This document shows, piece after piece, positions 48,320 to 60,036 of a DNA stretch of 64,000 nt (position 1 is its first letter; each line of letters opens with the position of its first letter). Origin of the DNA: Pseudomonadota bacterium (GTDB lineage: Bacteria; Desulfobacterota; Desulfovibrionia; Desulfovibrionales; Desulfovibrionaceae). The position numbers and the translations under genes were made by a program. The notes under the pieces are model-generated. The model was given only the letters and a program-made list of their open reading frames with translations. It had not been told where the DNA came from and did no database searches. Where the stretch lies: NCBI GenBank assembly GCA_018822105.1, contig JAHJLB010000001.1, positions 1 to 64,000 of the forward strand, read 5' to 3'.

Positions 48320-48381
48320 CGCCGCCGGGGAGAGCTCAGGTCCGCCTTGTGGGGCGCAACCGACGCAAGCAGGAGAACGCC

Positions 48382-49185
48382 ATGCATCTTGGAAAAGCCA
48401 TCCGGCTCGAACGCATCTTCAACCGCAACACCAAACGCACCGTCATCGTGCCCATGGACCACGGCACCACGGTGGGCCCCATCGCCGGCATCGTGGACAT
48501 GCGCGAGGCCGTGGGGGCCATCGTGGAGGGCGGGGCCAACGCCGTGCTCATGCACAAGGGGCTTGTGCGCTGCGGCCACCGCACCCAGGGCAAGGACATC
48601 GGCCTCATCGTCCACCTCTCCGCCAGCACCACCCTTTCCCCCTTTCCCAACGCCAAGACCCTGGTGGGCACGGTTGAGGACGCCATCCGCCTCGGCGCCG
48701 ACGCCGTGAGCGTGCACGTGAACCTGGGCGACGAGAGCGAGGCCAAGATGCTCACGGACTTCGGCCAGGTGACCTCCATCGCCCAGAGCTGGGGCATCCC
48801 GGTGCTGGCCATGGTCTACGCCCGCGGCCCCAAGGTGCGCAGCGAGTTTGACGTGGACATCGTGGCGCACTGCGCCCGCGTGGGCGTGGAGCTGGGCGCG
48901 GACGTGGTCAAGGTGCCCTACACCGGGGATGTGGACAGCTTCGGCCGCGTGGTCGACGCCTGCTGTGTGCCCGTGGTCATCGCCGGCGGCCCCAAGCTCG
49001 ACAGCACCAAGGCCTTCCTGCAGATGGTGCACGACTCCATCGTCGCCGGCGGTTCGGGCCTGTCCGTGGGCCGCAACATCTTCCAGCACAAGAACCCCGC
49101 CCTGCTCACCCAGGCCCTGTCCAAGGTCGTGCACGAGGACGTGGATGTGGACGTGGCCATGGAAATGCTCGCGGGCAAGGAATAG
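48382..49185 (+). CDS. 2-amino-3,7-dideoxy-D-threo-hept-6-ulosonate synthase (DhnA-type aldolase)
   Basis: 267 residues from ATG 48382 with AGGAG upstream. An FBP-aldolase class I/DhnA fold is shown by VPMDHGTT (Asp26, His27), HKGL, MVYARGP (Tyr146) and the Schiff-base Lys177 in VKVPYTGD. In archaea and Desulfovibrio-type bacteria this enzyme condenses aspartate semialdehyde with a deoxyketofructose phosphate, the first step of the alternative route to dehydroquinate. The neighbouring DHQ synthase II and the rest of the aromatic operon confirm the role. It is the first structural gene after the attenuator. Confidence 0.9.
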
Positions 49186-49190
49186 GCATC

Positions 49191-50177
49191 ATGAAGAAGA
49201 TCATCTTCAAGGCCATCCCCTTCCAGAAGAAGCTGGTGACCCTGGCCCTGGAATCCGGGGTGGACGCCATCCTGACCGAGGCGGCCAAGGCCGACGCCGT
49301 GCGCGCCCTGGGCCGCGTGGAGGTCCTGACGCCCGAGGATCTGCCCACCCTGCCGCTGGCCTCCAAGGCCGACGAGGAGGCCGCCGTGGCCCTGCTCAGG
49401 ACCGGTCAGGCCGTGGCCCTGGAAAAGGGCTGGGAGATCATCCCCGTGGAGAACATCCTGGCCCAGGCCGAGAACCTGGCCCTGGAATGCGAGTCCCTGG
49501 ACCGCGCGGTGCTGGCCGCGGGCATCCTGGAGCGCGGGGCCGATGCCATCGTGGTCCTGCCCGAGGCCGCGGGCGACCTGAAGGCCATCGTGGCCGAGCT
49601 GAAGCTCTCCCAGGGCAGCATCGAACTGCAGCGCGCCGTGGTCACGGCCATCGAGCCCGCCGGCCTGGGCCACCGCGTCTGCGTGGACACCATCTCCATG
49701 CTCCGGCGCGGGCAGGGCATGCTGGTGGGCAATTCCAGCGCCTTCACCTTCCTGGTGCACGCCGAAACCGAAAGCAACCCCTACGTGGCCGCGCGGCCCT
49801 TCCGGGTCAACGCGGGCGCGGTGCACGCCTACGCCGCGCTGCCCGGCGACAAGACCTGCTACCTGGAGGAGCTCTCCGCCGGGCGCGAGGTGCTCATCGT
49901 GGGCGCGGACGGGCAGACCAGCCTGGCCACCGTGGGCCGCGTCAAGGTCGAGGTCCGGCCCATGCTCAAGATCACGGCCAAGGTGCTCGCCGCGGACGGC
50001 GCAGAGGTCTCGGGCCAGGTGTTTTTGCAGAACGCCGAGACCATCCGCGTCACCGGCATTGACGGCACGCCCATCAGCGTGGTCAACCTGAAGCCCGGCG
50101 ACGAGATACTCTGCCGCACGGACGTGGCGGGCCGGCACTTCGGCATGCGCATCCGCGAGGACATCAAGGAGGGCTGA
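49191..50177 (+). CDS. 3-dehydroquinate synthase II
   Basis: 328 residues, five bases after the previous stop. The sequence matches the AroB-II family, with HRVCVDTISMLRRGQGMLVGNSS and VNAGAVHAYAALP as the most conserved stretches. It oxidatively deaminates the ADH product to 3-dehydroquinate, replacing AroB. Together with the upstream aldolase this makes the DAHP synthase/AroB route unnecessary in this organism. The stop TGA is three bases before the pheA GTG. Confidence 0.92.
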   Translation: MKKIIFKAIPFQKKLVTLALESGVDAILTEAAKADAVRALGRVEVLTPEDLPTLPLASKADEEAAVALLRTGQAVALEKGWEIIPVENILAQAENLALECESLDRAVLAAGILERGADAIVVLPEAAGDLKAIVAELKLSQGSIELQRAVVTAIEPAGLGHRVCVDTISMLRRGQGMLVGNSSAFTFLVHAETESNPYVAARPFRVNAGAVHAYAALPGDKTCYLEELSAGREVLIVGADGQTSLATVGRVKVEVRPMLKITAKVLAADGAEVSGQVFLQNAETIRVTGIDGTPISVVNLKPGDEILCRTDVAGRHFGMRIREDIKEG

Positions 50178-50180
50178 AGC

Positions 50181-51305
50181 GTGAGCACCAAGAAGAAAGA
50201 TCCGGCGCCCGCGCTGGACCTGACCAGGCTGCGCGCCGAGATCGACGCCCTGGACGACGGCATCATGGACCTCCTGAACCGCCGCGCGGCCATCAGCATC
50301 GGCGTGGGCCGCACCAAGGAGGGCTCCCCGGACACGGTGTTCAAGCCCTTCCGCGAGAAGGAGATCATGGAGCGTCTGGCCAGGAAGAACCCCGGGCCCT
50401 TGCCGGAGAGCCACCTGCACGCCATCTACCGCGAGATCATGAGCTCCTCGCGCCGGTTGCAGCGCCCGGAGCGCGTGGTCTACCTGGGGCCCGAGGGCAC
50501 CTTCTCCTACTTCGCGGGCCTGGAGTTCATGGGCCGCAGCGCGGAGCTGACGCCCAAGGCGGGCTTCGAGGACATCTTCCGCGCCGTGGCCGACGGCGAG
50601 GCCGAACTGGGCGTCATCCCGCTGGAGAATTCGCTCCAGGGCACCGTGGGCCAGGTGGTGGACCTGTTCATGCTCTTCCCGGTGCACATCCACGCCGAGC
50701 TTTACTGCCGCATCACCCACTGCCTCATGGGCAAGGCCCAGTCCATGGCCGAGGTCAAGGAGATCCACTCCCACCCGCAGCCCCTGGACCAGTGCGGCGG
50801 GTGGCTCAGGAACAACATGCCCGGCCGCACCCTGGTGCCCGAGAGCAGCACCGCCGCCGCGGCGGAGATCGCGGCCGCGCGCGGGCCGGAGGTGGCCACC
50901 GTGGGGCACATCCGCCTGGCCGACCGCTACGGCCTGAACGTCATGGCCGCGCACATCGAGGACCTGCCGGACAACTGGACGCGCTTTCTGGTCATCGGCC
51001 CCCGGCCGGGCACGGAGGCCGCGCGCGACAAGACCTCCATCCTCTTCACCGTGCCGGACAAGCCCGGCGCCCTGGCCGAGGTGCTGGACTCCTTCGCCGG
51101 CCGGGCCATCAACCTGACCAAGCTCGAATCGCGCCCCCTGCGCGGCGAAAAATGGAAGTACGTGTTCTTCGCCGACCTGGAGTGCGACCTCTCGCGCATG
51201 GAGTACGACAGCTTCCTGGCTTCCTTGCGCGAGCGCTGCCACACCCTGCGCATCCTGGGCTCCTATCCCGCGGGCCCGCACCTGGACGCCGGAGGAAGAC
51301 AATGA
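50181..51305 (+). CDS. pheA: bifunctional chorismate mutase / prephenate dehydratase
   Basis: 374 residues with a GTG start. Residues about 12-92 are an AroQ chorismate mutase (LRAEIDALDDGIMDLLNRRA). From about 97 the prephenate dehydratase follows (YLGPEGTFSYFA, GVIPLENSLQGTV). The C-terminal ACT domain keeps PDKPGALAEVL and KLESRPLRG, the two Phe-binding motifs, so feedback inhibition by phenylalanine is expected. It supplies phenylpyruvate for phenylalanine. Overlap with aroA is ATGA. Confidence 0.94.
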   Translation: MSTKKKDPAPALDLTRLRAEIDALDDGIMDLLNRRAAISIGVGRTKEGSPDTVFKPFREKEIMERLARKNPGPLPESHLHAIYREIMSSSRRLQRPERVVYLGPEGTFSYFAGLEFMGRSAELTPKAGFEDIFRAVADGEAELGVIPLENSLQGTVGQVVDLFMLFPVHIHAELYCRITHCLMGKAQSMAEVKEIHSHPQPLDQCGGWLRNNMPGRTLVPESSTAAAAEIAAARGPEVATVGHIRLADRYGLNVMAAHIEDLPDNWTRFLVIGPRPGTEAARDKTSILFTVPDKPGALAEVLDSFAGRAINLTKLESRPLRGEKWKYVFFADLECDLSRMEYDSFLASLRERCHTLRILGSYPAGPHLDAGGRQ

Positions 51306-52675
51306 TGACCCAGCCGGCCAAGGCCGCCATCCTGATATCCGCCCCGGCCTCCAAGTCCATGTCGCACCGCGCCCTCATCGGCGCGGCCCTGGCCCCGGGC
51401 GAGTCCCGCCTGGCAGGCGTGCTGGAGAGCGTGGACACCACCCATACCATGGGCTGCCTCACGGCCTGCGGCGCGGGCTTCGCCCGCCTCGGCGCGGGGG
51501 AATACCTGGTCCGGGGCATGCGCCACGGCCCGGAGAGCGGCGACGGCGTGGCCGACCTGGACGTCTGCGAGTCCGGCACCACCTGCCGCCTGCTGGCCGG
51601 GGTCGTGGCGGCCGGGCGCGGGCGTTTCCGCATCCACGGCGCGCCCCGCATGCACGAGCGGCCCCTGGGCGAGCCCGCCCGCGCGCTGGCGGCCCAGGGC
51701 GTGCGCTTCCTCTGGGAGGGCAAGCCCGGCTACCCGCCCGTGACCATAGAGACCTCGGGCCTGCCCGGCGGCGACATCGACGTGCGCCTGGAGGAGAGCA
51801 GCCAGTACCTCTCCGGCATCCTGCTCACCGCGCCCCTGGCCAAAAGCCCGCTGACCATCGGCATCTCCGGCACCAAGGCCGTGAGCTGGCCCTATGTGTC
51901 GCTGACCCTGCAGACCCTGCGCGACTTCGGCGTGCCCGCGGTGGTGGAGGCGCTTGCAGACGGCCGCTTCGAGCCGGTGGAGCAGGACAGCGTCACCCGC
52001 GCCGAGCCCGGCCGGCTGCGCTTCCTGGTCCAGCCCGGGACCTACCAGCCCCGCACCCTGCGCGTGGAGGGCGACTGGAGCAACGCCTCGTACTTCCTGG
52101 CCGCCGGTGCCGTGGGCAGGCGCCCGGTGACCCTGCGCGGCCTCCTGCGCGAGTCCTTCCAGGGCGACCGCGCCATCCTGGACATCCTGGCGGCCATGGG
52201 CGCGCGCATCGCCTGGACCATGGGCTCTTCCGGCGGCATGGGGGGCGACGAGGTGACCATCGCCCCGCCCGCCAGCGGCTCGCTGCGCGGCGTGGACGTG
52301 GACATGGGCGCCTGCCCGGACCTGGTGCCCACCGTGGCCGTGGCGGCCTGCTTCGCCCAGGGCCAAACGGTCATCCGCAACGTGGCCCACCTGCGCATCA
52401 AGGAATGCGACCGCCTGGAGACCCTGGCCGGCGAGATCGCCAAGACCGGCTGCGCCGCGGCCATGACCCAGGACACCCTGACCATCACGCCCGCGCCCCT
52501 GCCTGCGGGCAGGCGCATCGAATTCTGCTCGCGCGGGGACCACCGCATGGTCATGGGCCCGGCCCTCTTCGGTCTTTCCGGCATCGACGCGGCCTTCGAC
52601 AATCCGGCCTGCGTGGCCAAGAGCTTCCCGGCCTTCTGGGACCTGTGGGCGGCCGTGCTCGCGGGACAGGCATAG
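51302..52675 (+). CDS. aroA: EPSP synthase (3-phosphoshikimate 1-carboxyvinyltransferase)
   Basis: 457 residues; the ATG at 51302 overlaps the pheA stop, and a second ATG follows at once. PASKSMSHRALIGAAL is the N-terminal shikimate-phosphate loop, CESGTTCRLLAG replaces the usual GNAGTAMR-type motif, and RIKECDRL and the C-terminal CSRGDHRMVM are present. It joins shikimate-3-phosphate and PEP on the way to chorismate. Length is slightly above average. No separate aroC, aroE, aroD or aroK is in this window. Confidence 0.92.
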   Translation: MMTQPAKAAILISAPASKSMSHRALIGAALAPGESRLAGVLESVDTTHTMGCLTACGAGFARLGAGEYLVRGMRHGPESGDGVADLDVCESGTTCRLLAGVVAAGRGRFRIHGAPRMHERPLGEPARALAAQGVRFLWEGKPGYPPVTIETSGLPGGDIDVRLEESSQYLSGILLTAPLAKSPLTIGISGTKAVSWPYVSLTLQTLRDFGVPAVVEALADGRFEPVEQDSVTRAEPGRLRFLVQPGTYQPRTLRVEGDWSNASYFLAAGAVGRRPVTLRGLLRESFQGDRAILDILAAMGARIAWTMGSSGGMGGDEVTIAPPASGSLRGVDVDMGACPDLVPTVAVAACFAQGQTVIRNVAHLRIKECDRLETLAGEIAKTGCAAAMTQDTLTITPAPLPAGRRIEFCSRGDHRMVMGPALFGLSGIDAAFDNPACVAKSFPAFWDLWAAVLAGQA

Positions 52676-52683
52676 GAGCCGCA

Positions 52684-53448
52684 ATGCTGCCGCACCGGGA
52701 CATTGGGCGGGTCGCCGTCGTGGGCGCGCGGGGCCAGATGGGGGCGCTCTTCGCGCGCGCCCTGCACAAGGCAGGGGCCGAGGTGTCCACCCTGGACCGG
52801 CCCTACGCCGACGAGGCCATCGCCGCCGCCCTGGCCGGGGCCGAACTGGTCATCCTCTCCGTGCCGGTGACGGCCATGCGCGAGGTGGCACGGCGGCTGG
52901 CCCCGCATCTGGCGCAGGGGGCCATTTTGTCCGACCTGTGCTCGGTGAAGGTGCACCCCCTGGACCAGATGCTCGCCGCCTACCACGGCCCCGTGGTGGG
53001 CACACACCCGCTCTTCGGGCCGGTGATCCCCGAGGGCTTCCTCCCGCGCGTGGCCGTCGCCCCGGGCCGCGGCGAGGGCGCGGCCGAGGCCGTGTCGCGG
53101 CTTTTGGCCCGGGCCGGGTTCGAGCCCTTCGACAGCACGGCGGAGGAGCACGACAAGGCCATGTCCGTGGTGCAGGGGCTCAACTTCATCACCACCGTGG
53201 CCTACCTGGCCACCGCGCGGCAGACGCCCGGCATCGAGAAGTTCCGCACCCCGTCCTTTGAGCGCCGGCTGGACGCGGCGCGCAAGATGCTCACCCAGGA
53301 CCGCGAGCTCTTCCAGCTCATAGCCGAGGACAACCCCTTCATGCAGGAGACCGTGCGCCAGTTCACGGCCTACCTGGACATCGCCGCCGGAGGCGATCTG
53401 GATCTCCTCTCCGCCAGGGCCTCCTGGTGGTGGCGCGACTCGGCATAG
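52684..53448 (+). CDS. tyrA: prephenate dehydrogenase whose last codons also form the trp attenuator leader
   Basis: 254 residues from ATG 52684. The Rossmann NAD site is VAVVGARGQMGALFA, LSDLCSVKVHPL and GTHPLFGP are the usual prephenate-binding segments, and DKAMSVVQGLNFI is the later helix. It makes hydroxyphenylpyruvate for tyrosine. The ending is unusual: residues 248-250 are Trp-Trp-Trp, encoded by three TGG codons at 53425-53433, then Arg-Asp-Ser-Ala and TAG at 53446. This tail lies precisely where a trp leader peptide would be relative to the downstream terminator, so the C-terminus probably doubles as a sensor of charged tRNA-Trp. Confidence 0.93.
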   Translation: MLPHRDIGRVAVVGARGQMGALFARALHKAGAEVSTLDRPYADEAIAAALAGAELVILSVPVTAMREVARRLAPHLAQGAILSDLCSVKVHPLDQMLAAYHGPVVGTHPLFGPVIPEGFLPRVAVAPGRGEGAAEAVSRLLARAGFEPFDSTAEEHDKAMSVVQGLNFITTVAYLATARQTPGIEKFRTPSFERRLDAARKMLTQDRELFQLIAEDNPFMQETVRQFTAYLDIAAGGDLDLLSARASWWWRDSA

Positions 53449-53521
53449 GGACGCGGCTTTCGCCCTGGGGCGAGGTTTGAGCAAATGTTTGCCGCGTCCC
53501 GTACAGGGTCGCGGCTTTTTT
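53414..53521 (+). promoter_or_regulatory. trp attenuator between tyrA and trpE
   Basis: Segment 2 (GGGACGCGGC, 53448-53457) begins at the last base of the tyrA stop codon and is a perfect ten-base complement of segment 3 (GCCGCGTCCC, 53491-53500). Segment 3 also pairs, with one mismatch, with segment 4 (GGGTCGCGGC, 53506-53515), which is followed by six T. A possible segment 1:2 pair is CCAGGGC (53414-53420) with GCCCTGG (53462-53468). A ribosome that reaches the tyrA stop would cover segment 2 and allow termination. One held at the TGG codons would leave segment 2 free to form the antiterminator. All pairings are read directly from the sequence; the mechanism is inferred. Confidence 0.85.
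53491..53521 (+). terminator. intrinsic terminator arm of the trpE attenuator
   Basis: GCCGCGTCCC, loop GTACA, GGGTCGCGGC and TTTTTT, a GC-rich stem with nine of ten pairs. It lies inside a single operon 18 bases before the trpE start, so it must be regulated rather than a simple end of transcription. Confidence 0.8.
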
Positions 53522-53538
53522 ACGAAACGGAGGACGCA

Positions 53539-54951
53539 ATGGACATTCGCCTGAGGCATTACGGAAAATGGCTCCCTGCCGACGTGCAGACGCCCATCAG
53601 CCTGTACCTGGGCCTGGTGGGCACGGCCCCCGGCATCCTGCTGGAGAGCGCCGAGGTGGACGGGCGCCTGGGCCGTTACAGCCTCATCGCCTGGGACTTC
53701 CGCCTCCTGGCCGAGCAGAGGGAAGGCAAGCTGGCCCTGGACATACGCGACGAGCGCCTGAAGGGGCTTGAGGCCCTGGACGGCCAGGACTACATGCAGG
53801 GCGTGCGCCAGCTCCTGCGCGCCATCGAGATCGAGCAGCCCGCGGAGCGCGAGCCGCTGCCCGCCCTCACCCGCGCCCTCTACGGCTACCTGGGCTACGG
53901 CATCGGCGGCATGCTGGAGCCCAAGCTGCAGGAGGCCCTGCCGCCGCACAAGGCCCAGACGCGCCTGGTGCTGCCGGGCCAGGTGGTGCTCTACGACCAT
54001 CTGCGCCACCGCTGCTGCTACCTGTCCCTGGACGACAACGGCGGGCCCAAGCCGGCCAAGCTGGGCGACGCCGGCTCCTTCGCCCTGGAGGCCAGCGAGC
54101 CCACGGCCAGCCCGGGCCGCGAGGAGTTCATGGCCGGGGTGGTCAAGGCCAAGGAGCTCATCACCGACGGCGAGGGCATCCAGCTGGTGCTCTCGGTGCG
54201 CTTCGCCACGCCCTTTGCGGGCCAGCCCTTTGGCGTGTACCGCCGGCTGCGCCAGGCCAATCCCTCGCCCTTCATGTTCTTCATGCGCTTCGAGGAGGAG
54301 ACCCTGCTGGGCAGCTCACCGGAGATGCTGGTGAAATGCGAGGCCGGCAGGCTTGAGGTCCGGCCCATCGCCGGAACCCGTCCGCGCGGCGACACCGAGG
54401 TCCTGGACATGGCCCTGGAGCGCGAGCTTCTGGCCGACCCCAAGGAGCGCGCCGAGCACGTCATGCTGGTGGACCTGGGCCGCAACGACCTGGGCCGCAT
54501 CGCCCGGCCGGGCAGCGTGGAGGTGGCCAAGTTCATGTGCGTGGAGCGCTTCTCCCACGTCATGCACCTGACCAGCTACGTGGAGGCCGACCTCAGGGAC
54601 GGCCTGGACGCCATCGACGTGCTCCAGGCCACCTTCCCCGCGGGCACCGTGGCCGGGGCGCCCAAGATCTGGGCCATGGAGACCATCGCCAAGATGGAGA
54701 AGATCGACCGCGGGCCGTATGCCGGGGCCATGGGCTGGCTGGGCCTGGGCAAGGGGCCGGTGCACCTGGGCACGGGCATCACCATCCGCAGCATGTGGAT
54801 GCGCGACGGCGTGTGCAGCTGGCAGGCCGGGGCCGGGCTGGTGTACGACTCCGAGCCGGAAAAGGAATGGCAGGAATGCCACAACAAGGCCCGCATCATC
54901 CGCGAGATTCTGTCCTCCAAGGGGGTTGGCGATGTTTTTACTGATCGATAA
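53539..54951 (+). CDS. trpE: anthranilate synthase component I
   Basis: 470 residues from ATG 53539 with GGAGG five bases upstream. LLESAEV at the N-terminus is the tryptophan-binding feedback motif. GSSPEMLVK, PIAGTRPRG, LVDLGRNDLGR and GTVAGAPKIWAME are catalytic chorismate-binding segments. With TrpG it makes anthranilate from chorismate and glutamine. Expression should be set by the attenuator just upstream, and activity by Trp inhibition. It overlaps trpG by 20 bases. Confidence 0.95.
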   Translation: MDIRLRHYGKWLPADVQTPISLYLGLVGTAPGILLESAEVDGRLGRYSLIAWDFRLLAEQREGKLALDIRDERLKGLEALDGQDYMQGVRQLLRAIEIEQPAEREPLPALTRALYGYLGYGIGGMLEPKLQEALPPHKAQTRLVLPGQVVLYDHLRHRCCYLSLDDNGGPKPAKLGDAGSFALEASEPTASPGREEFMAGVVKAKELITDGEGIQLVLSVRFATPFAGQPFGVYRRLRQANPSPFMFFMRFEEETLLGSSPEMLVKCEAGRLEVRPIAGTRPRGDTEVLDMALERELLADPKERAEHVMLVDLGRNDLGRIARPGSVEVAKFMCVERFSHVMHLTSYVEADLRDGLDAIDVLQATFPAGTVAGAPKIWAMETIAKMEKIDRGPYAGAMGWLGLGKGPVHLGTGITIRSMWMRDGVCSWQAGAGLVYDSEPEKEWQECHNKARIIREILSSKGVGDVFTDR

Positions 54952-55522
54952 CTTCGACTCCTTCACCTTCAACCTGGTGCAGGCCTTCCAGCAGCTCGGG
55001 GCCGACCCCGTGGTGCTCAGGAACGACCGTCCGGAGCTCCTGGACCCGGCCTTCGTGGCCGGGCTCTCCCGCGTCTGCCTCTCGCCCGGGCCCAGCCGCC
55101 CGGAGAACGCGGGCAACTGCCTGAAGTTCCTGGCCCTGCTGGAGGCCACCGGCATGGCCGTGCCCACCCTGGGCGTGTGCCTGGGCCACCAGACCCTGGG
55201 GCATTTCGCCGGGGCCTCCGTGGTCCGGGCCGCGCGCATCATGCACGGCAAGACGAGCCTGGTGGAGCACGACGGCACGGACGTCTTCGCCGGGCTGGAC
55301 AATCCGTTTGAGGTCTGCCGCTACCACTCGCTGCTGGTCCTGGCCCACGAGGCGCCGCAGAGGCTGCGCGTCACGGCCCGCACCGCCGAGGGCGAGGTCA
55401 TGGGCATGTGCTTCACCGACCGGCCCTGGAGCGGGGTGCAGTTCCACCCGGAGTCCATCCTGACCCCGGACGGGCCCAGGCTTCTGGCCAATTTCCTCAA
55501 ACGCACCGAGCAGGCCGCCTGA
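54932..55522 (+). CDS. trpG: anthranilate synthase component II (glutamine amidotransferase)
   Basis: 196 residues, ATG at 54932 within the trpE end. The class I amidotransferase triad is C83 (GVCLGHQ), H172 and E174 (QFHPESI). It supplies ammonia to TrpE. It is a separate gene, not fused to trpD. No second pabA-like copy is seen in this window, so it might also serve folate synthesis (inference). It is followed by trpD after 10 bases. Confidence 0.94.
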   Translation: MFLLIDNFDSFTFNLVQAFQQLGADPVVLRNDRPELLDPAFVAGLSRVCLSPGPSRPENAGNCLKFLALLEATGMAVPTLGVCLGHQTLGHFAGASVVRAARIMHGKTSLVEHDGTDVFAGLDNPFEVCRYHSLLVLAHEAPQRLRVTARTAEGEVMGMCFTDRPWSGVQFHPESILTPDGPRLLANFLKRTEQAA

Positions 55523-55532
55523 GGCCGGGGGG

Positions 55533-56567
55533 ATGATCATGGACCTGAACATGCGCGACATTCTGGACACCCTGGGCGAAGGCGCCGACCTCACGCCCGA
55601 GCAGGCGGCCTTCGCCTTCCGCGAGCTCTTCGAGGGCGACCTGAGCCCGGCCCAGGCCGGGGCCCTGCTCATGGGCCTGCGGGCCAAGGGCGAGACCGCC
55701 CTGGAGCTGGCCTCGGCCGCGCGCGCCGGCCTGGAGCGCGCCCGGCTCGTCAGCGGGCTGCCCACGGACCGGCCCATCGTGGAGATCGTGGGCACCGGCG
55801 GCGACCTCATGAACAGCTTCAACTGCTCCACGGCCGGGTCTCTGTATCTGGCGGCCCTGGGCCACCGGGTGGTCAAGCACGGCAACCGCGCCGTGTCCTC
55901 GTCCTCGGGCAGCGCCGACGCCCTCGAAGGCCTGGGCATCCGCCTGGACACCGGCCCGGACGAGGTGGCCGGGGCGCTGGCCAAGACCGGCTTCGTGTAC
56001 CTCTTCGCGCCGGGCTACCACCCGGCCTTCGCCCACATCGCGCCGGTGCGCCGGGAGCTCGGCGTGCGCACCCTGTTCAACCTCATGGGCCCGCTCCTGA
56101 ACCCGGCCCGGCCCTCGCGGCAGCTCATGGGCGTGGGCAGCGCGCGCGCCCTCAAGCTCATGGCCGAGACCCTGGCCCTCACCGCGCCGGACGTGCTGGC
56201 CCTGGTCATCCACGGGACCGTGGAGGGCCGGAAGGGCGGCTTCGACGAGCTGACGCCCTTTGGCCCGGCCCTGGGCTTTGTGGTGGACCGCGGCAAGGTC
56301 AGCCCCTTCCGCCTGGACCCGAGCGAGTTCGGCATTCCGGCCCACGACCCGGACCAGGTGCGCGTGGCCGACAAGCAGAGCGCCCTTGCGGCCATCCGCG
56401 ACGTGCTCACCGGCCGGGCCAACGCGGCCATGCAGGACATGACCGCCCTGAACCTGGGCGCGGCCCTGCACCTGGTGACCGGCAGGGAGCTGGCCGAATG
56501 CATGCGCGAGGCGCGCACCGCCGTGGCCGACGGCGCGGCAAGGAGCTTCGCCAATGGCAACGGATAG
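55533..56567 (+). CDS. trpD: anthranilate phosphoribosyltransferase
   Basis: 344 residues from ATG 55533 (GGGGGG-type site just upstream). GTGGD at 87-91 binds PRPP, and KHGNRAVSSSSGSADALEGLG and FAPGYHPAF are family signatures, as is HGTVEGRKGGFDELTPFG. It joins anthranilate to phosphoribosyl pyrophosphate. The 3' end overlaps trpC by 14 bases. Confidence 0.95.
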   Translation: MIMDLNMRDILDTLGEGADLTPEQAAFAFRELFEGDLSPAQAGALLMGLRAKGETALELASAARAGLERARLVSGLPTDRPIVEIVGTGGDLMNSFNCSTAGSLYLAALGHRVVKHGNRAVSSSSGSADALEGLGIRLDTGPDEVAGALAKTGFVYLFAPGYHPAFAHIAPVRRELGVRTLFNLMGPLLNPARPSRQLMGVGSARALKLMAETLALTAPDVLALVIHGTVEGRKGGFDELTPFGPALGFVVDRGKVSPFRLDPSEFGIPAHDPDQVRVADKQSALAAIRDVLTGRANAAMQDMTALNLGAALHLVTGRELAECMREARTAVADGAARSFANGNG

Positions 56568-57372
56568 GGCGGGGAGCATGCTCGACCGCTTCCGGGCCGC
56601 GCAGCAAGGCCCCATCGCGCTGCTGCGCAGGCTGGCCGGCGAGGGCCGCCTGCCCGCCCCCTGGCAGGGGCGGCGCCCCGGGTTTTCGGCCGCCCTCAGG
56701 GCCGCCGGGGCCCCGGCGGTCATCGCCGAGTACAAGCGCGCCTCGCCCTCGCGCGGGGTCATCAACCTGGACCTGACGCCAGCGGACGTGGCACGCATGT
56801 ATGCCGAAGGCGGGGCCGCCTGCCTCTCCGTGCTCACCGAGAAGGCCCATTTCCAGGGCGACCTGCGCTTCCTGGAGGACATGGCCTTTGCCGGCCTGCC
56901 CCTGCTGCGCAAGGACTTCCTGCTGGACCCCCTGCAGGTGGCGGAGACCGCGGCCACGCCGGCCTCGGCGCTCTTGCTCATCATGCGCATGTTTCCCGGC
57001 GCGGCCCAGGTGCGCGGGATGCTCGACGCCTGCCGCGGCTTTGGCCTGGAGGCCGTGTGCGAGGTCTTCGACGAGGCCGACCTGGTCGTCGCCCGCCAGG
57101 CCGGGGCCGGGATCATCCAGGTCAACAACCGCGACCTGGACCGCCTGGAGACGGACCTCTCCATCTCGCGCCGCCTGGCGCCCCTCAAGGGCCAGGGCGT
57201 CGGCGAGCTGTGGATCAGCGCCTCGGGCCTGGACGCGCCGGAGCAGCTGGAAGAAATGGCCGGCCTGGGCTTCGACGCCGTGCTCATCGGCACCTCGCTC
57301 ATGAGCACCCCCGACCCCGGAGCGGCCCTCGGGAGGCTGACCGCCGTGGCCAGGACAAGGAGCGCGCCATGA
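56554..57372 (+). CDS. trpC: indole-3-glycerol-phosphate synthase
   Basis: 272 residues from ATG 56554. A TIM barrel with VIAEYKRASPSRG (catalytic Lys), LSVLTEKAHFQGDL, LRKDFLLDPLQV and IQVNNRDLDRLETDL. It closes the pyrrole ring, converting the carboxyphenylamino deoxyribulose phosphate to indole-3-glycerol phosphate. Its stop overlaps the trpF start as ATGA. Confidence 0.95.
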   Translation: MATDRAGSMLDRFRAAQQGPIALLRRLAGEGRLPAPWQGRRPGFSAALRAAGAPAVIAEYKRASPSRGVINLDLTPADVARMYAEGGAACLSVLTEKAHFQGDLRFLEDMAFAGLPLLRKDFLLDPLQVAETAATPASALLLIMRMFPGAAQVRGMLDACRGFGLEAVCEVFDEADLVVARQAGAGIIQVNNRDLDRLETDLSISRRLAPLKGQGVGELWISASGLDAPEQLEEMAGLGFDAVLIGTSLMSTPDPGAALGRLTAVARTRSAP

Positions 57373-58070
57373 CCAACGGACTGCTGGTCAAGGTCTGCGG
57401 CCTGACCCGCGAGGAGGACGTCGGGCTCTGCGCCGAGCTCGGCGCGGACCTGCTGGGCTTCATCTTCCACCCGGGCAGCCCGCGCAACACCACGCCGGAG
57501 TTCCCGGCGCGCCTGAGGACCCCCGGCGCGCGCAAGGTGGGCGTGTTCGTGGGCCAGAAGCCCATGGAGGCGCTGGGCATCATGGCCGCCGGGCGGCTGG
57601 ACCTGGCGCAGCTCCACGGCGGCCAGACCGAATCCTTCTGCGCCGCCCTGGCCGAGCGCATGGGGCCGCAGCGCATCATCAAGGTCTTCTGGCCGGAAAA
57701 GGCCGCCAGCCTGGAGGCCTTCCAGGCCGAGCTGGACCGCTACGCGCCCTACTGCGGGCACATGCTCGTGGACGCGGGCCTGGGCGGCGGCGGGCATGGC
57801 CAGGTGATAAGCGGCAAGGCCCCGGAGCTCCTGGCGCAGGCGAGGTTCCCGCGTCCGTGGCTCCTGGCCGGGGGCCTGAATCCGGAGAACCTCCCCGGCC
57901 TGATTTCCCGGCACCGGTCTCTCGGCCCACTGGGCAAGGGGCCGGACGGCGTGGACCTCAATTCGGGCGTGGAAAGCGCGCCCGGCCACAAGGACGAAAA
58001 ACTGCTGCGCGCGGCCTTCGCCGCAATCAAGGCGGCCCGCGCGGCCCAAACGCAAGGGGTGACCCCGTGA
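57369..58070 (+). CDS. trpF: phosphoribosylanthranilate isomerase
   Basis: 233 residues. VKVCGLTREED (catalytic Cys), LGFIFHPGSPR, QLHGGQTE and DAGLGGGGHGQ are clear TrpF signatures; LLAGGLNPEN and the VDLNSGVE segment end the barrel. It is somewhat longer than typical TrpF because of the C-terminal helix region (LLRAAFAAIKAARAAQ). It overlaps trpC by four bases and trpB (GTGA) by four. Confidence 0.94.
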   Translation: MTNGLLVKVCGLTREEDVGLCAELGADLLGFIFHPGSPRNTTPEFPARLRTPGARKVGVFVGQKPMEALGIMAAGRLDLAQLHGGQTESFCAALAERMGPQRIIKVFWPEKAASLEAFQAELDRYAPYCGHMLVDAGLGGGGHGQVISGKAPELLAQARFPRPWLLAGGLNPENLPGLISRHRSLGPLGKGPDGVDLNSGVESAPGHKDEKLLRAAFAAIKAARAAQTQGVTP

Positions 58071-59245
58071 AGAAAGGCTATTTCGGAATCTTCGGCGGGC
58101 AGTTCGTGCCCGAGCTGCTCATGCCGCCGCTGCTCGAGTTGGAGGAGGCCATGGCGCGCATCCTGCCCTCCAGGGAGTTCCAGGACGAGCTCGCAAGCGA
58201 GCTGGCCCATTTCGTGGGCCGGCCCACGGCGCTCACCTTCTGCCCCAACCTCTCGGCGAAGCTGGGCGTCAGGCTCTGGCTCAAGCGCGAGGACCTGGCC
58301 CACGGCGGCGCGCACAAGGTCAACAACACCATCGGCCAGGCCCTGCTGGCCAAGAAGCTCGGCAAGAAGCGCCTCCTGGCCGAGACCGGCGCGGGCCAGC
58401 ACGGCGTGGCCTCGGCCCTGGCCGCCGCGCGCCTGGGCCTTTCCTGCACCATCTACATGGGCGCCACCGACGTGGAGCGCCAGAGCCTCAACGTGCGCCG
58501 CATGAAGCTCTTCGGGGCCGAAGTGGTGACCGTGGACTCCGGCACCAAGACCCTGAAGGACGCCATCAACGCCGCCATGCGCGCCTGGATCGCCGAGCAG
58601 GAGACCACCCACTACTGCTTCGGCACCGCCGCCGGGCCGCACCCCTTCCCGCTTTTGGTGCGCGAGCTGCAGGCCTGCATCAGCCGCGAGGCGCGCGCGC
58701 AGATGCTCGCCCAGGCGGGGGCGCTGCCCGACTATGTGGTGGCCTGCGTGGGCGGCGGCTCAAACGCCATCGGGGCCTTCCACGAATTCGTGCCCGACGC
58801 GCAGGTCGCACTCGTCGGGGTGGAGGCCGCGGGCTCGGGCAAGCCCGGAGACTGGCATTCCGCGCCCCTGTCAAAGGAGGGCTCGCCCGGCGTGCTGCAC
58901 GGCATGCACACCCAGCTCATCCAGACGCCCGAGGGCCAGATCCTGCCCTCGCACTCCATCGCCCCGGGCCTGGACTACCCCGGCGTGGGCCCGGAGCACG
59001 CGGCCTACCAGGCCTCGGGCCGGGCGCGCTACGTGTCCGTCACCGACGACGTGGCCCTGGACGCCTTTGTGACCCTCTCGCGCTTCGAGGGCATCATGCC
59101 CGCCCTGGAATCCTCCCACGCCCTCGGCTGGGCCCTGGCCAACGCCAAGGACATGAAGCCGGGCAGCAACGTGGTGGTCTGCCTTTCCGGCCGGGGCGAC
59201 AAGGACCTGGACATCGTCAACGACTACCTGGCCAAGAAGGCCTAG
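58067..59245 (+). CDS. trpB: tryptophan synthase beta chain
   Basis: 392 residues with a GTG start that overlaps the trpF stop and has AAGGGG upstream. The PLP lysine is K84 in GGAHKVNN, and GGGSNAIG is the phosphate loop. ETGAGQHGVA and GRGDKDLD are also diagnostic. It condenses indole with serine. A DLAHGGAHK sequence stands where many TrpB have DLNHTGAHK, a conservative family variation. It is followed by trpA after 11 bases. Confidence 0.95.
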   Translation: MKKGYFGIFGGQFVPELLMPPLLELEEAMARILPSREFQDELASELAHFVGRPTALTFCPNLSAKLGVRLWLKREDLAHGGAHKVNNTIGQALLAKKLGKKRLLAETGAGQHGVASALAAARLGLSCTIYMGATDVERQSLNVRRMKLFGAEVVTVDSGTKTLKDAINAAMRAWIAEQETTHYCFGTAAGPHPFPLLVRELQACISREARAQMLAQAGALPDYVVACVGGGSNAIGAFHEFVPDAQVALVGVEAAGSGKPGDWHSAPLSKEGSPGVLHGMHTQLIQTPEGQILPSHSIAPGLDYPGVGPEHAAYQASGRARYVSVTDDVALDAFVTLSRFEGIMPALESSHALGWALANAKDMKPGSNVVVCLSGRGDKDLDIVNDYLAKKA

Positions 59246-59256
59246 GAACGAAAGCC

Positions 59257-60036
59257 ATGAGCACCAACATCCTGACCCAACGCATCCGCGAGGCCCGCGC
59301 CAAGGGCCGCCTCGGCCTCATCCCCTTCCTGCCCGCCGGCTATCCGGACAAGAACCGCTTCTGGACCGAAATCGACCAGCTGGACGAGGCCGGGGCCGAC
59401 ATCATCGAGATCGGCATGCCCTTCTCCGACCCCGTGGCCGACGGCCCCGTGGTGGAGCACGCCTCGCTGAAGTGCCTGGAATCCGGCGTCAACCTCTCGT
59501 GGATATTGAAGGAACTGGCGGCGCGCAAGGGCCGCTACAAGGCCGGGCTGGTGCTCATGGGCTACCTGAACCCGGTGCTGCAGTACGGCCTGGAGCGCTT
59601 TGGCCGCGACGCCAGCTCCGCCGGGGTCCACGGGGTCATCCTGGCCGACGTGCCCTTCGAGGAGTCCGCGCCCGTCCGTGCGGCCTTCGACCCCTTCGGC
59701 CTGGCGCTCATCCCCCTGGTGGGCCTGAACACCCTGCCGGAGCGCATGGCCCTCTACGCCAAGGACGGCCAGGGCTTCGCCTATTTCGTGTCCGTGCTGG
59801 GCACCACGGGCGTGCGCTCGGCCTTTGACACGGGCCTGCCGGAAAGCATCCGCGCTGGGCTCACCGCGGCCAAGGCCGCCTTCGACATCCCCGTGGCCCT
59901 GGGCTTCGGCCTCAAGCACCCGGACCAGCTCAAGGCCCTGGACGGCCTGGTGGACGCCGCCGTGTTCGGCAGCGCGCTCATCCGGCACATCGACGCGGGC
60001 GGAGACAGCACGGGCTTCATGCAGGTCTGGAAGTAA
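59257..60036 (+). CDS. trpA: tryptophan synthase alpha chain
   Basis: 259 residues. IEIGMPFSDPVADGPVVEHAS holds the catalytic Glu, with the usual Asp later (ILADVPFEES). LGTTGVRSAFD and GFGLKHPDQ are conserved. It splits indole-glycerol phosphate and channels indole to TrpB. It is the last gene of the operon and is followed by the terminator at 60101. Confidence 0.94.
   Translation: MSTNILTQRIREARAKGRLGLIPFLPAGYPDKNRFWTEIDQLDEAGADIIEIGMPFSDPVADGPVVEHASLKCLESGVNLSWILKELAARKGRYKAGLVLMGYLNPVLQYGLERFGRDASSAGVHGVILADVPFEESAPVRAAFDPFGLALIPLVGLNTLPERMALYAKDGQGFAYFVSVLGTTGVRSAFDTGLPESIRAGLTAAKAAFDIPVALGFGLKHPDQLKALDGLVDAAVFGSALIRHIDAGGDSTGFMQVWK

Follow-up and report, generated by a model that had tools for sequence, protein, structure and literature searches.

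The junction between tyrA and trpE in a 64,000-nucleotide stretch of Desulfovibrionaceae DNA (the window; GenBank assembly GCA_018822105.1, contig JAHJLB010000001.1, forward strand) is very probably a ribosome-mediated transcription attenuator that senses tryptophan (Trp), with the C-terminal end of a complete enzyme, TyrA, as its leader. Trp codons, mutually exclusive RNA helices, covariation and a constant distance from the Trp codons were seen in its sequence and in comparison with relatives. The same predicted design is common to many relatives across the order Desulfovibrionales.

TyrA of the window has 254 residues and ends in ...RASWWWRDSA*, with three consecutive Trp codons near its stop (WWW; runs of two and four are written WW and WWWW). 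Segment 2, the 5' arm of the putative antiterminator, begins with the G of the TAG stop codon, 14 nt past the last Trp codon, and matches segment 3 at 10/10 positions (Table 1). Segment 3 also pairs with segment 4, at 9/10 positions around a loop of 5 nt (free energy, dG, -18.7), to give a terminator. An earlier note on this DNA had described these parts, and re-reading the sequence bore out all of its coordinates, from the three TGG codons and the two helices to the six T. In other members of the window's genus (Humidesulfovibrio by its most frequent title, an inferred name), a hairpin resembling the one between segments 2 and 3 is visible by eye. When the upstream stretch was dinucleotide-shuffled, 3/200 shuffles paired as well as the junction's own sequence. 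The evidence from this single locus is little above chance, and the case therefore rests on relatives.

Conservation, spacing and pairing among relatives

TyrA was found in 15/15 genomes of the window's genus (one merely a fragment), in 260/288 genomes of the family and in 209/223 genomes of the order that are at least 95% complete (E 1e-60). We collected 211 loci (L001-L211), 100 of the regions being hand-picked from genomes with a TyrA match to spread over genera. Dropping 48 named records with a duplicate junction left 163 distinct junctions; loci of the same genus are related and non-independent. A junction was counted as linked if the stretch examined contained a same-strand TrpE match (E < 1e-20) downstream, contig ends counting as unlinked. 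Genus names attached to labels are inferred (g37, Pseudodesulfovibrio; g24, Halodesulfovibrio; g12, the Nitratidesulfovibrio group; g6, Bilophila; g18, Desulfovibrio).

A terminator was called at 107 loci. Three unlinked ones with too little upstream sequence (L107, L188 and L190) were dropped, leaving 104: 98 linked junctions with WWW or WWWW, one linked junction with WW (L148) and five unlinked. The 98 come from six families and comprise 92 from 22 labelled genera and six loci without a genus label; treating the latter as one group gives 23 groups.

Terminators and Trp runs go together. Among linked junctions with a tyrA–trpE gap of at least 60 nt, a terminator was called in 94/101 with WWW, 4/4 with WWWW and 1/8 with WW. 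Put differently, 98/105 WWW or WWWW junctions have a called terminator, and 98 of the 99 junctions with one carry three or four Trp codons. The lone WW case, L148, has an irregular GC-rich hairpin and a poor T-run. Where the gap was shorter than 60 nt, none of the 19 junctions had a called terminator. Without trpE in view, 8/31 had one, among them L041, a truncated contig of the attenuator-bearing genus Pseudodesulfovibrio. In families f2-f6, 18 of 20 loci have trpE, WWW or WWWW, and a terminator; the exceptions, L201 and L202, have no trpE in view, a tail of LWW and no terminator, and share their genus label with three loci that do have trpE. Each of the six family labels sampled includes loci with Trp codons, terminator and antiterminator. 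The earlier note had proposed looking for a lack of conservation of Trp codons and stems in relatives; this comparison, run over six families, found both conserved and did not refute its proposal.

The position of segment 2 follows the Trp codons. Across the 98 linked junctions, the median distance from the last Trp codon to its start is 16 nt (interquartile range 15–18, standard deviation (SD) 2.5), against 13 nt for E. coli trpL put through the identical procedure. The start falls within 12–23 nt in 96/98 junctions, compared with a mean of 25% for shuffles, and at 10 and 11 nt in the other two. The end of the tyrA stop, meanwhile, ranges from 9 to 45 nt past the Trp run (SD 8.8), and the position of segment 2 relative to that stop has an SD of 8.9 nt. 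In 46/98 junctions segment 2 starts within the tyrA frame, before the stop. These data indicate that the Trp codons, not the tyrA stop, anchor the element, and such spacing would be unexpected for a simple terminator or a device that reads the stop codon. Given the general size of a ribosome footprint, the distance fits a stalled ribosome. Of the spacing described in the earlier note, the distance from Trp codons to segment 2 stands, and the placing of segment 2 behind the stop fails in those 46 junctions. With Trp codons, terminator and antiterminator recurring and the element anchored on Trp, its central idea of a complete TyrA as leader of a Trp attenuator is supported.

We also asked how specifically the segments pair. 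Taking one representative for each of the 23 groups, upstream stretches prefer their own segment 3 over permuted ones (permutation p 1e-4); the own segment is the single best partner in 8/23 groups, and its mean rank is 5.8. In 28 distinct Pseudodesulfovibrio sequences, helix 2:3 has four pairs changed on both sides, in five cells, which 0/500 shuffles reached. For helix 3:4 there are four such pairs and 23 cells, the pairs being reached in 6/500 shuffles and the cells in 0/500; in both cases the shuffles ignore relatedness. True alignments pair in 94.6% of cells (2:3) and 96.4% (3:4), versus 41–48% and 31–50% for slid alignments. Both predicted exclusive helices carry compensatory changes. 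As a control, none of the four terminators behind unlinked tyrA outside Pseudodesulfovibrio had an antiterminator exceeding shuffles (p 0.2 to 1.0). The fifth unlinked terminator, L041, gave p 0.007. Chance pairing alone was rejected, given the preference for the own segment 3, the Trp-anchored spacing and the double changes in helix 2:3.

A similar module occurs where trpE lies away from tyrA. From 44 genomes (10/14 and 27/30 used; weak matches L223-L225 set aside) we took 37 trpE loci for which the 0.67–1.5 kb upstream contained no TyrA match. In 34/37, a count that stands without a chance control, an open reading frame (ORF) with two or three consecutive Trp codons is followed by segment 2 and then by a terminator before trpE. 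Here segment 2 starts a median of 15 nt past the Trp run (range 4–17). The remaining three, L263, L269 and L274, have a short ORF with a single Trp, as judged by eye. What appears to lift the tyrA–trpE element beyond chance is the conjunction of in-frame Trp codons at the right distance with conservation over 22 labelled genera.

Proposed mechanism and alternative explanations

From these features we infer how stalling, termination and read-through would proceed in the cell. When Trp, and with it charged tRNA-Trp, is plentiful, the ribosome following RNA polymerase would clear WWW and reach the stop; in many relatives it would translate through segment 2. With segment 2 covered, the 3:4 terminator would form and transcription would end before trpE, leaving aroA' to tyrA still expressed. 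When Trp is short, the ribosome would stall on WWW and segment 2, just ahead, would stay free. Helix 2:3 would then form, no terminator would follow, and trpE to trpA would be transcribed.

A 1:2 protector or pause hairpin was not found in the 98 linked junctions (median duplex z 0.18 versus shuffles; 1:2 stronger than 2:3 in 4/98). Hairpins that would sequester segment 2 were likewise not found to be general (group median z -1.7 to 1.1, mononucleotide shuffles). In Pseudodesulfovibrio, a hairpin 3' of segment 2, seen by eye, could play the 1:2 part. Since the search turned up no partner for segment 2 in a segment 1, synchrony would have to come from ordinary transcription–translation coupling along a long gene. 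If tyrA were left untranslated, the model predicts read-through and not shut-off. The earlier note had expected expression of the Trp branch to depend on actual translation of tyrA; this prediction runs the other way.

Several observations weigh against a Trp-sensing attenuator. RNA structure and energies are by themselves unexceptional in this GC-rich window: it holds 77 loosely defined hairpin-plus-T sites, the junction included, and structure alone is not compelling because 8 of the other 76 have a stronger (lower-energy) upstream partner. The antiterminator beats shuffles at p ≤ 0.05 in 75/98 junctions and at p ≤ 0.01 in 53/98. The own segment 3 ranks as low as 19 of 23 in g13, 15 in g53, and 14 in g15 and in the unlabelled group. 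No 2:3 covariation was seen within the window's own genus, because segments 2 and 3 hardly vary there. No terminator was called in 7/105 linked WWW or WWWW junctions (L018, L028, L053, L057, L064, L085 and L103). Among the Trp-rich short ORFs, some fit poorly: L213, with segment 2 at 4 nt, and the weak L262 and L267.

The Trp run itself is also found without an attenuator. WWW occurs in 22/31 TyrA tails without trpE in view and in 5/19 of the short-gap junctions (below 60 nt), all five lacking a called terminator; the run therefore appears to have a protein-level or historical cause as well, and not to be kept by attenuation alone. An AlphaFold model of TyrA (8-row alignment) has block-mean predicted local distance difference test (pLDDT) values of 41–72 from residue 161 on. 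The 14 PDB sequences found by profile are uninformative on the tail, because their matches end at or before profile position 210 of 250.

WWW or WW kept in many TyrA tails that lack an attenuator, together with strong upstream partners being common in the window, would suit an ordinary partial intrinsic terminator that sets the ratio of the gene sets without sensing Trp. WWW would then be a feature of the TyrA protein, and helix 2:3 a by-product of repeated GC-rich sequence. We consider this improbable: the distance from Trp codons to segment 2 is fixed while the stop codon moves, upstream stretches prefer their own partner, helix 2:3 carries double changes, and the same module follows Trp-rich short ORFs at trpE loci apart from tyrA.

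Very improbable is translation-coupled polarity that senses general ribosome position or translation rate and not tryptophan. The intercistronic site after a complete gene, with no pause or protector hairpin found, does resemble E. coli rph-pyrE as described in PMC2784333. Yet 98 of the 99 linked terminator junctions have at least three Trp codons, segment 2 lies at stalling distance in 96/98, and the genes downstream are trp genes, all of which argue against this reading.

TRAP-regulated trp leaders contain repeated GAG/UAG triplets that are bound by TRAP, the trp RNA-binding attenuation protein. That a Trp-responsive protein or riboswitch (TRAP-like, T-box or TrpR) acts at the junction is scarcely credible, even though trp operons elsewhere use such regulators: Rfam covariance models gave no match at gathering score over 53200-53700 (the best of four sub-threshold matches had E 0.93), by which a T-box or other Rfam cis-regulator is rejected; one study (PMC5343134) reports TrpR regulons from gammaproteobacterial lineages and from none of its other classes; and nothing was found in favor of TRAP-like, T-box or TrpR control, no specific search for TRAP sites having been made.

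Gene cluster and variant junctions

In the window, the genes run in the order aroA' (aldolase-type), 3-dehydroquinate (DHQ) synthase II, pheA, aroA, tyrA, trpE and the other trp genes (Table 1).

Table 1. Positions in the window of the proposed attenuator and of the surrounding gene cluster
Feature	Position	Strand	Basis
Three consecutive TGG (Trp) codons in the tyrA frame, proposed regulatory codons	53425..53433	+	sequence and TyrA translation
tyrA stop codon, TAG	53446..53448	+	sequence read
Segment 2, antiterminator 5' arm, GGGACGCGGC	53448..53457	+	
Small hairpin in the loop separating segments 2 and 3 (53460-53464:53469-53473)	53460..53473	+	by eye
Segment 3, common to antiterminator and terminator, GCCGCGTCCC	53491..53500	+	
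Segment 4, terminator 3' arm, GGGTCGCGGC	53506..53515	+	
Terminator T-run, 6 T	53516..53521	+	
GGAGG before trpE	53529-53533	+	sequence read
tyrA, prephenate dehydrogenase; complete enzyme gene, 3' end as leader reading frame	52684..53448	+	Pfam PDH_N, E 2.7e-14
trpE, first gene after the attenuator	53539..54951	+	ATG at 53539; Pfam Anth_synt_I_N and Chorismate_bind
Remaining trp operon, trpG to trpA	54932..60036	+	ORF list
trpG, trpD, trpC, trpA	~54932, 55533, 56554, 59257	+	names from recognising translations, without family search
Genes 5' of tyrA: aldolase-type aroA', DHQ synthase II, chorismate mutase-prephenate dehydratase pheA, 5-enolpyruvylshikimate-3-phosphate synthase aroA	48349..52675	+	

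Some junctions depart from this plan. In L053, L057 and L064 (g36), L085 and L103 (g35) and L028 (g27), a WWW tail is followed by trpE 95–253 nt on, with no T-run terminator called; GC-rich repeats between the two genes may be another kind of switch. In L065, L071 and L072 (g2), L090, L094 and L106 (g39) and L080 and L095 (g17), the tyrA–trpE overlap is 17 or 1 nt, the tail has WWW or WW, and no attenuator was called. Control of the trp genes in these overlapping loci is probably different. The TyrA match of L016 (G167) carries one in-frame TGA in the search listings.

Pseudodesulfovibrio loci (e.g. L022, L029, L034, L048 and L226-L247) carry, between the tyrA attenuator and trpE, a conserved ORF of 25 codons whose fifth codon is an in-frame TGA (M-x-x-T-TGA-K-x-x-E-N-R-K-K-x-K-G-W-x-V-I-P-R-P-Y-H). 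It was recovered from 22/206 family genomes, each time with one TGA, by a protein query that placed Cys at this codon. All 22 genomes have a selenocysteine tRNA (tRNA-Sec) match above the Rfam cut-off. After the TGA, 124/179 codon differences from the consensus are synonymous, versus 20% expected (22 distinct sequences). A tiny selenopeptide, a read-through peptide or a second leader are possible interpretations. In L017, L024, L027, L041 and L044, also Pseudodesulfovibrio, the TGA-containing start motif occurs (TGA was a fixed part of the search pattern) and the conserved frame after it is absent; trpE is 220 to 864 nt away in these loci, or the contig ends.

Known attenuators, short leaders and implications

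The E. coli trp leader has a dedicated 14-residue leader peptide and a 1:2 hairpin for polymerase pausing and for shut-off without translation (PMC1183508). The tyrA–trpE junction shares with trpL its consecutive Trp codons, exclusive 2:3 and 3:4 helices and T-run; it differs in having a 254-residue enzyme as leader and no 1:2 pairing that we could find. A run of end-product codons, a terminator before the first structural gene, an exclusive antiterminator and the stalling distance, all features of trpL/hisL-type attenuators, can be read in its sequence. The short dedicated leader peptide that marks the trpL subtype is absent. We regard the 1:2 hairpin as a feature of the E. coli trp leader and do not take it as defining every attenuator.

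Three partial precedents qualify the earlier note's remark that it knew of no described example. In E. coli rph-pyrE, use of an intercistronic attenuator modulated by UTP (uridine triphosphate) depends on how the whole gene before it is translated (PMC2784333). The tyrA–trpE junction likewise lies between two genes, and its use would likewise be tied to translation of a complete upstream gene; rph-pyrE, however, responds to UTP without sensing amino-acid codons. Bonekamp 1984, with UTP-modulated in its title, is reportedly the source cited for that attenuator. In chlamydial YtgCR, WWW within a full-length protein serves as a Trp sensor for trp genes (PMC7755916). That resembles the three Trp codons of tyrA, but YtgCR acts in trans via a repressor. 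There, stalling reduces transcription of the part of the ORF that lies beyond WWW; in tyrA, stalling should instead let the next genes be transcribed. Finally, a 2005 database screen lists a putative attenuator in the aro-tyrA-[trp operon] cluster of D. vulgaris (Table 7 of PMC1173090). This is the same gene cluster in a relative, and the accessible entry gives no leader peptide, Trp codons, position or structure. The main text of a study of regulation in delta-proteobacteria (PMC545781) is without the words 'tryptophan', 'trp' or 'aromatic'. Our literature search, with most subscription papers outside it, found no description of a tyrA tail as trp leader, and to that extent the remark stands: an enzyme tail as cis Trp-codon leader is new within the literature covered, while ribosome-mediated attenuation itself is known.

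In Desulfovibrio, Bilophila and relatives, the Trp-rich short ORFs that precede trpE appear to use the same module, with a short ORF in place of the tyrA tail and no TyrA match upstream. Examples are MNSFSNTISNSFKGWWWRIQLRGGDVRA and MLNAFSLTFSAYRWWWRVVDVKGGVRPA, which the Nitratidesulfovibrio TyrA tail WWWRSHTERGGVRPS resembles. At the nucleotide level, most short leaders compare with TyrA tails near the shuffled level, L215 (11 vs 5.5), L213 (10 vs 4.6) and L219 (9 vs 4.8) lying above it; descent of short leaders from the tyrA tail was not shown by this comparison. The tyrA-tail form is likely ancestral to the short-leader form, because families f2-f6 have it. Tentatively, and with rather more doubt than confidence, we suggest that, from the ancestor of the Desulfovibrionales onward, the trp operon has had the TyrA C-terminus as its Trp sensor, synchronized by ordinary coupling without a pause hairpin. 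Where the trp genes and tyrA parted (strict-sense Desulfovibrio, Bilophila and relatives), the tail would have been cut down to, or replaced by, a short leader peptide, a leader born from an enzyme tail.

These data suggest that amino-acid attenuation may need no dedicated leader peptide, and that the end of a translated gene can be the sensor. Searches for short ORFs would miss such enzyme-tail leaders. The system offers a test of whether plain coupling can replace a pause hairpin, and a single bacterial order would provide the switch between enzyme-tail and short-peptide leaders. For the organism, the attenuator would give the Trp branch its own control inside a single aro-phe-tyr-trp cluster.

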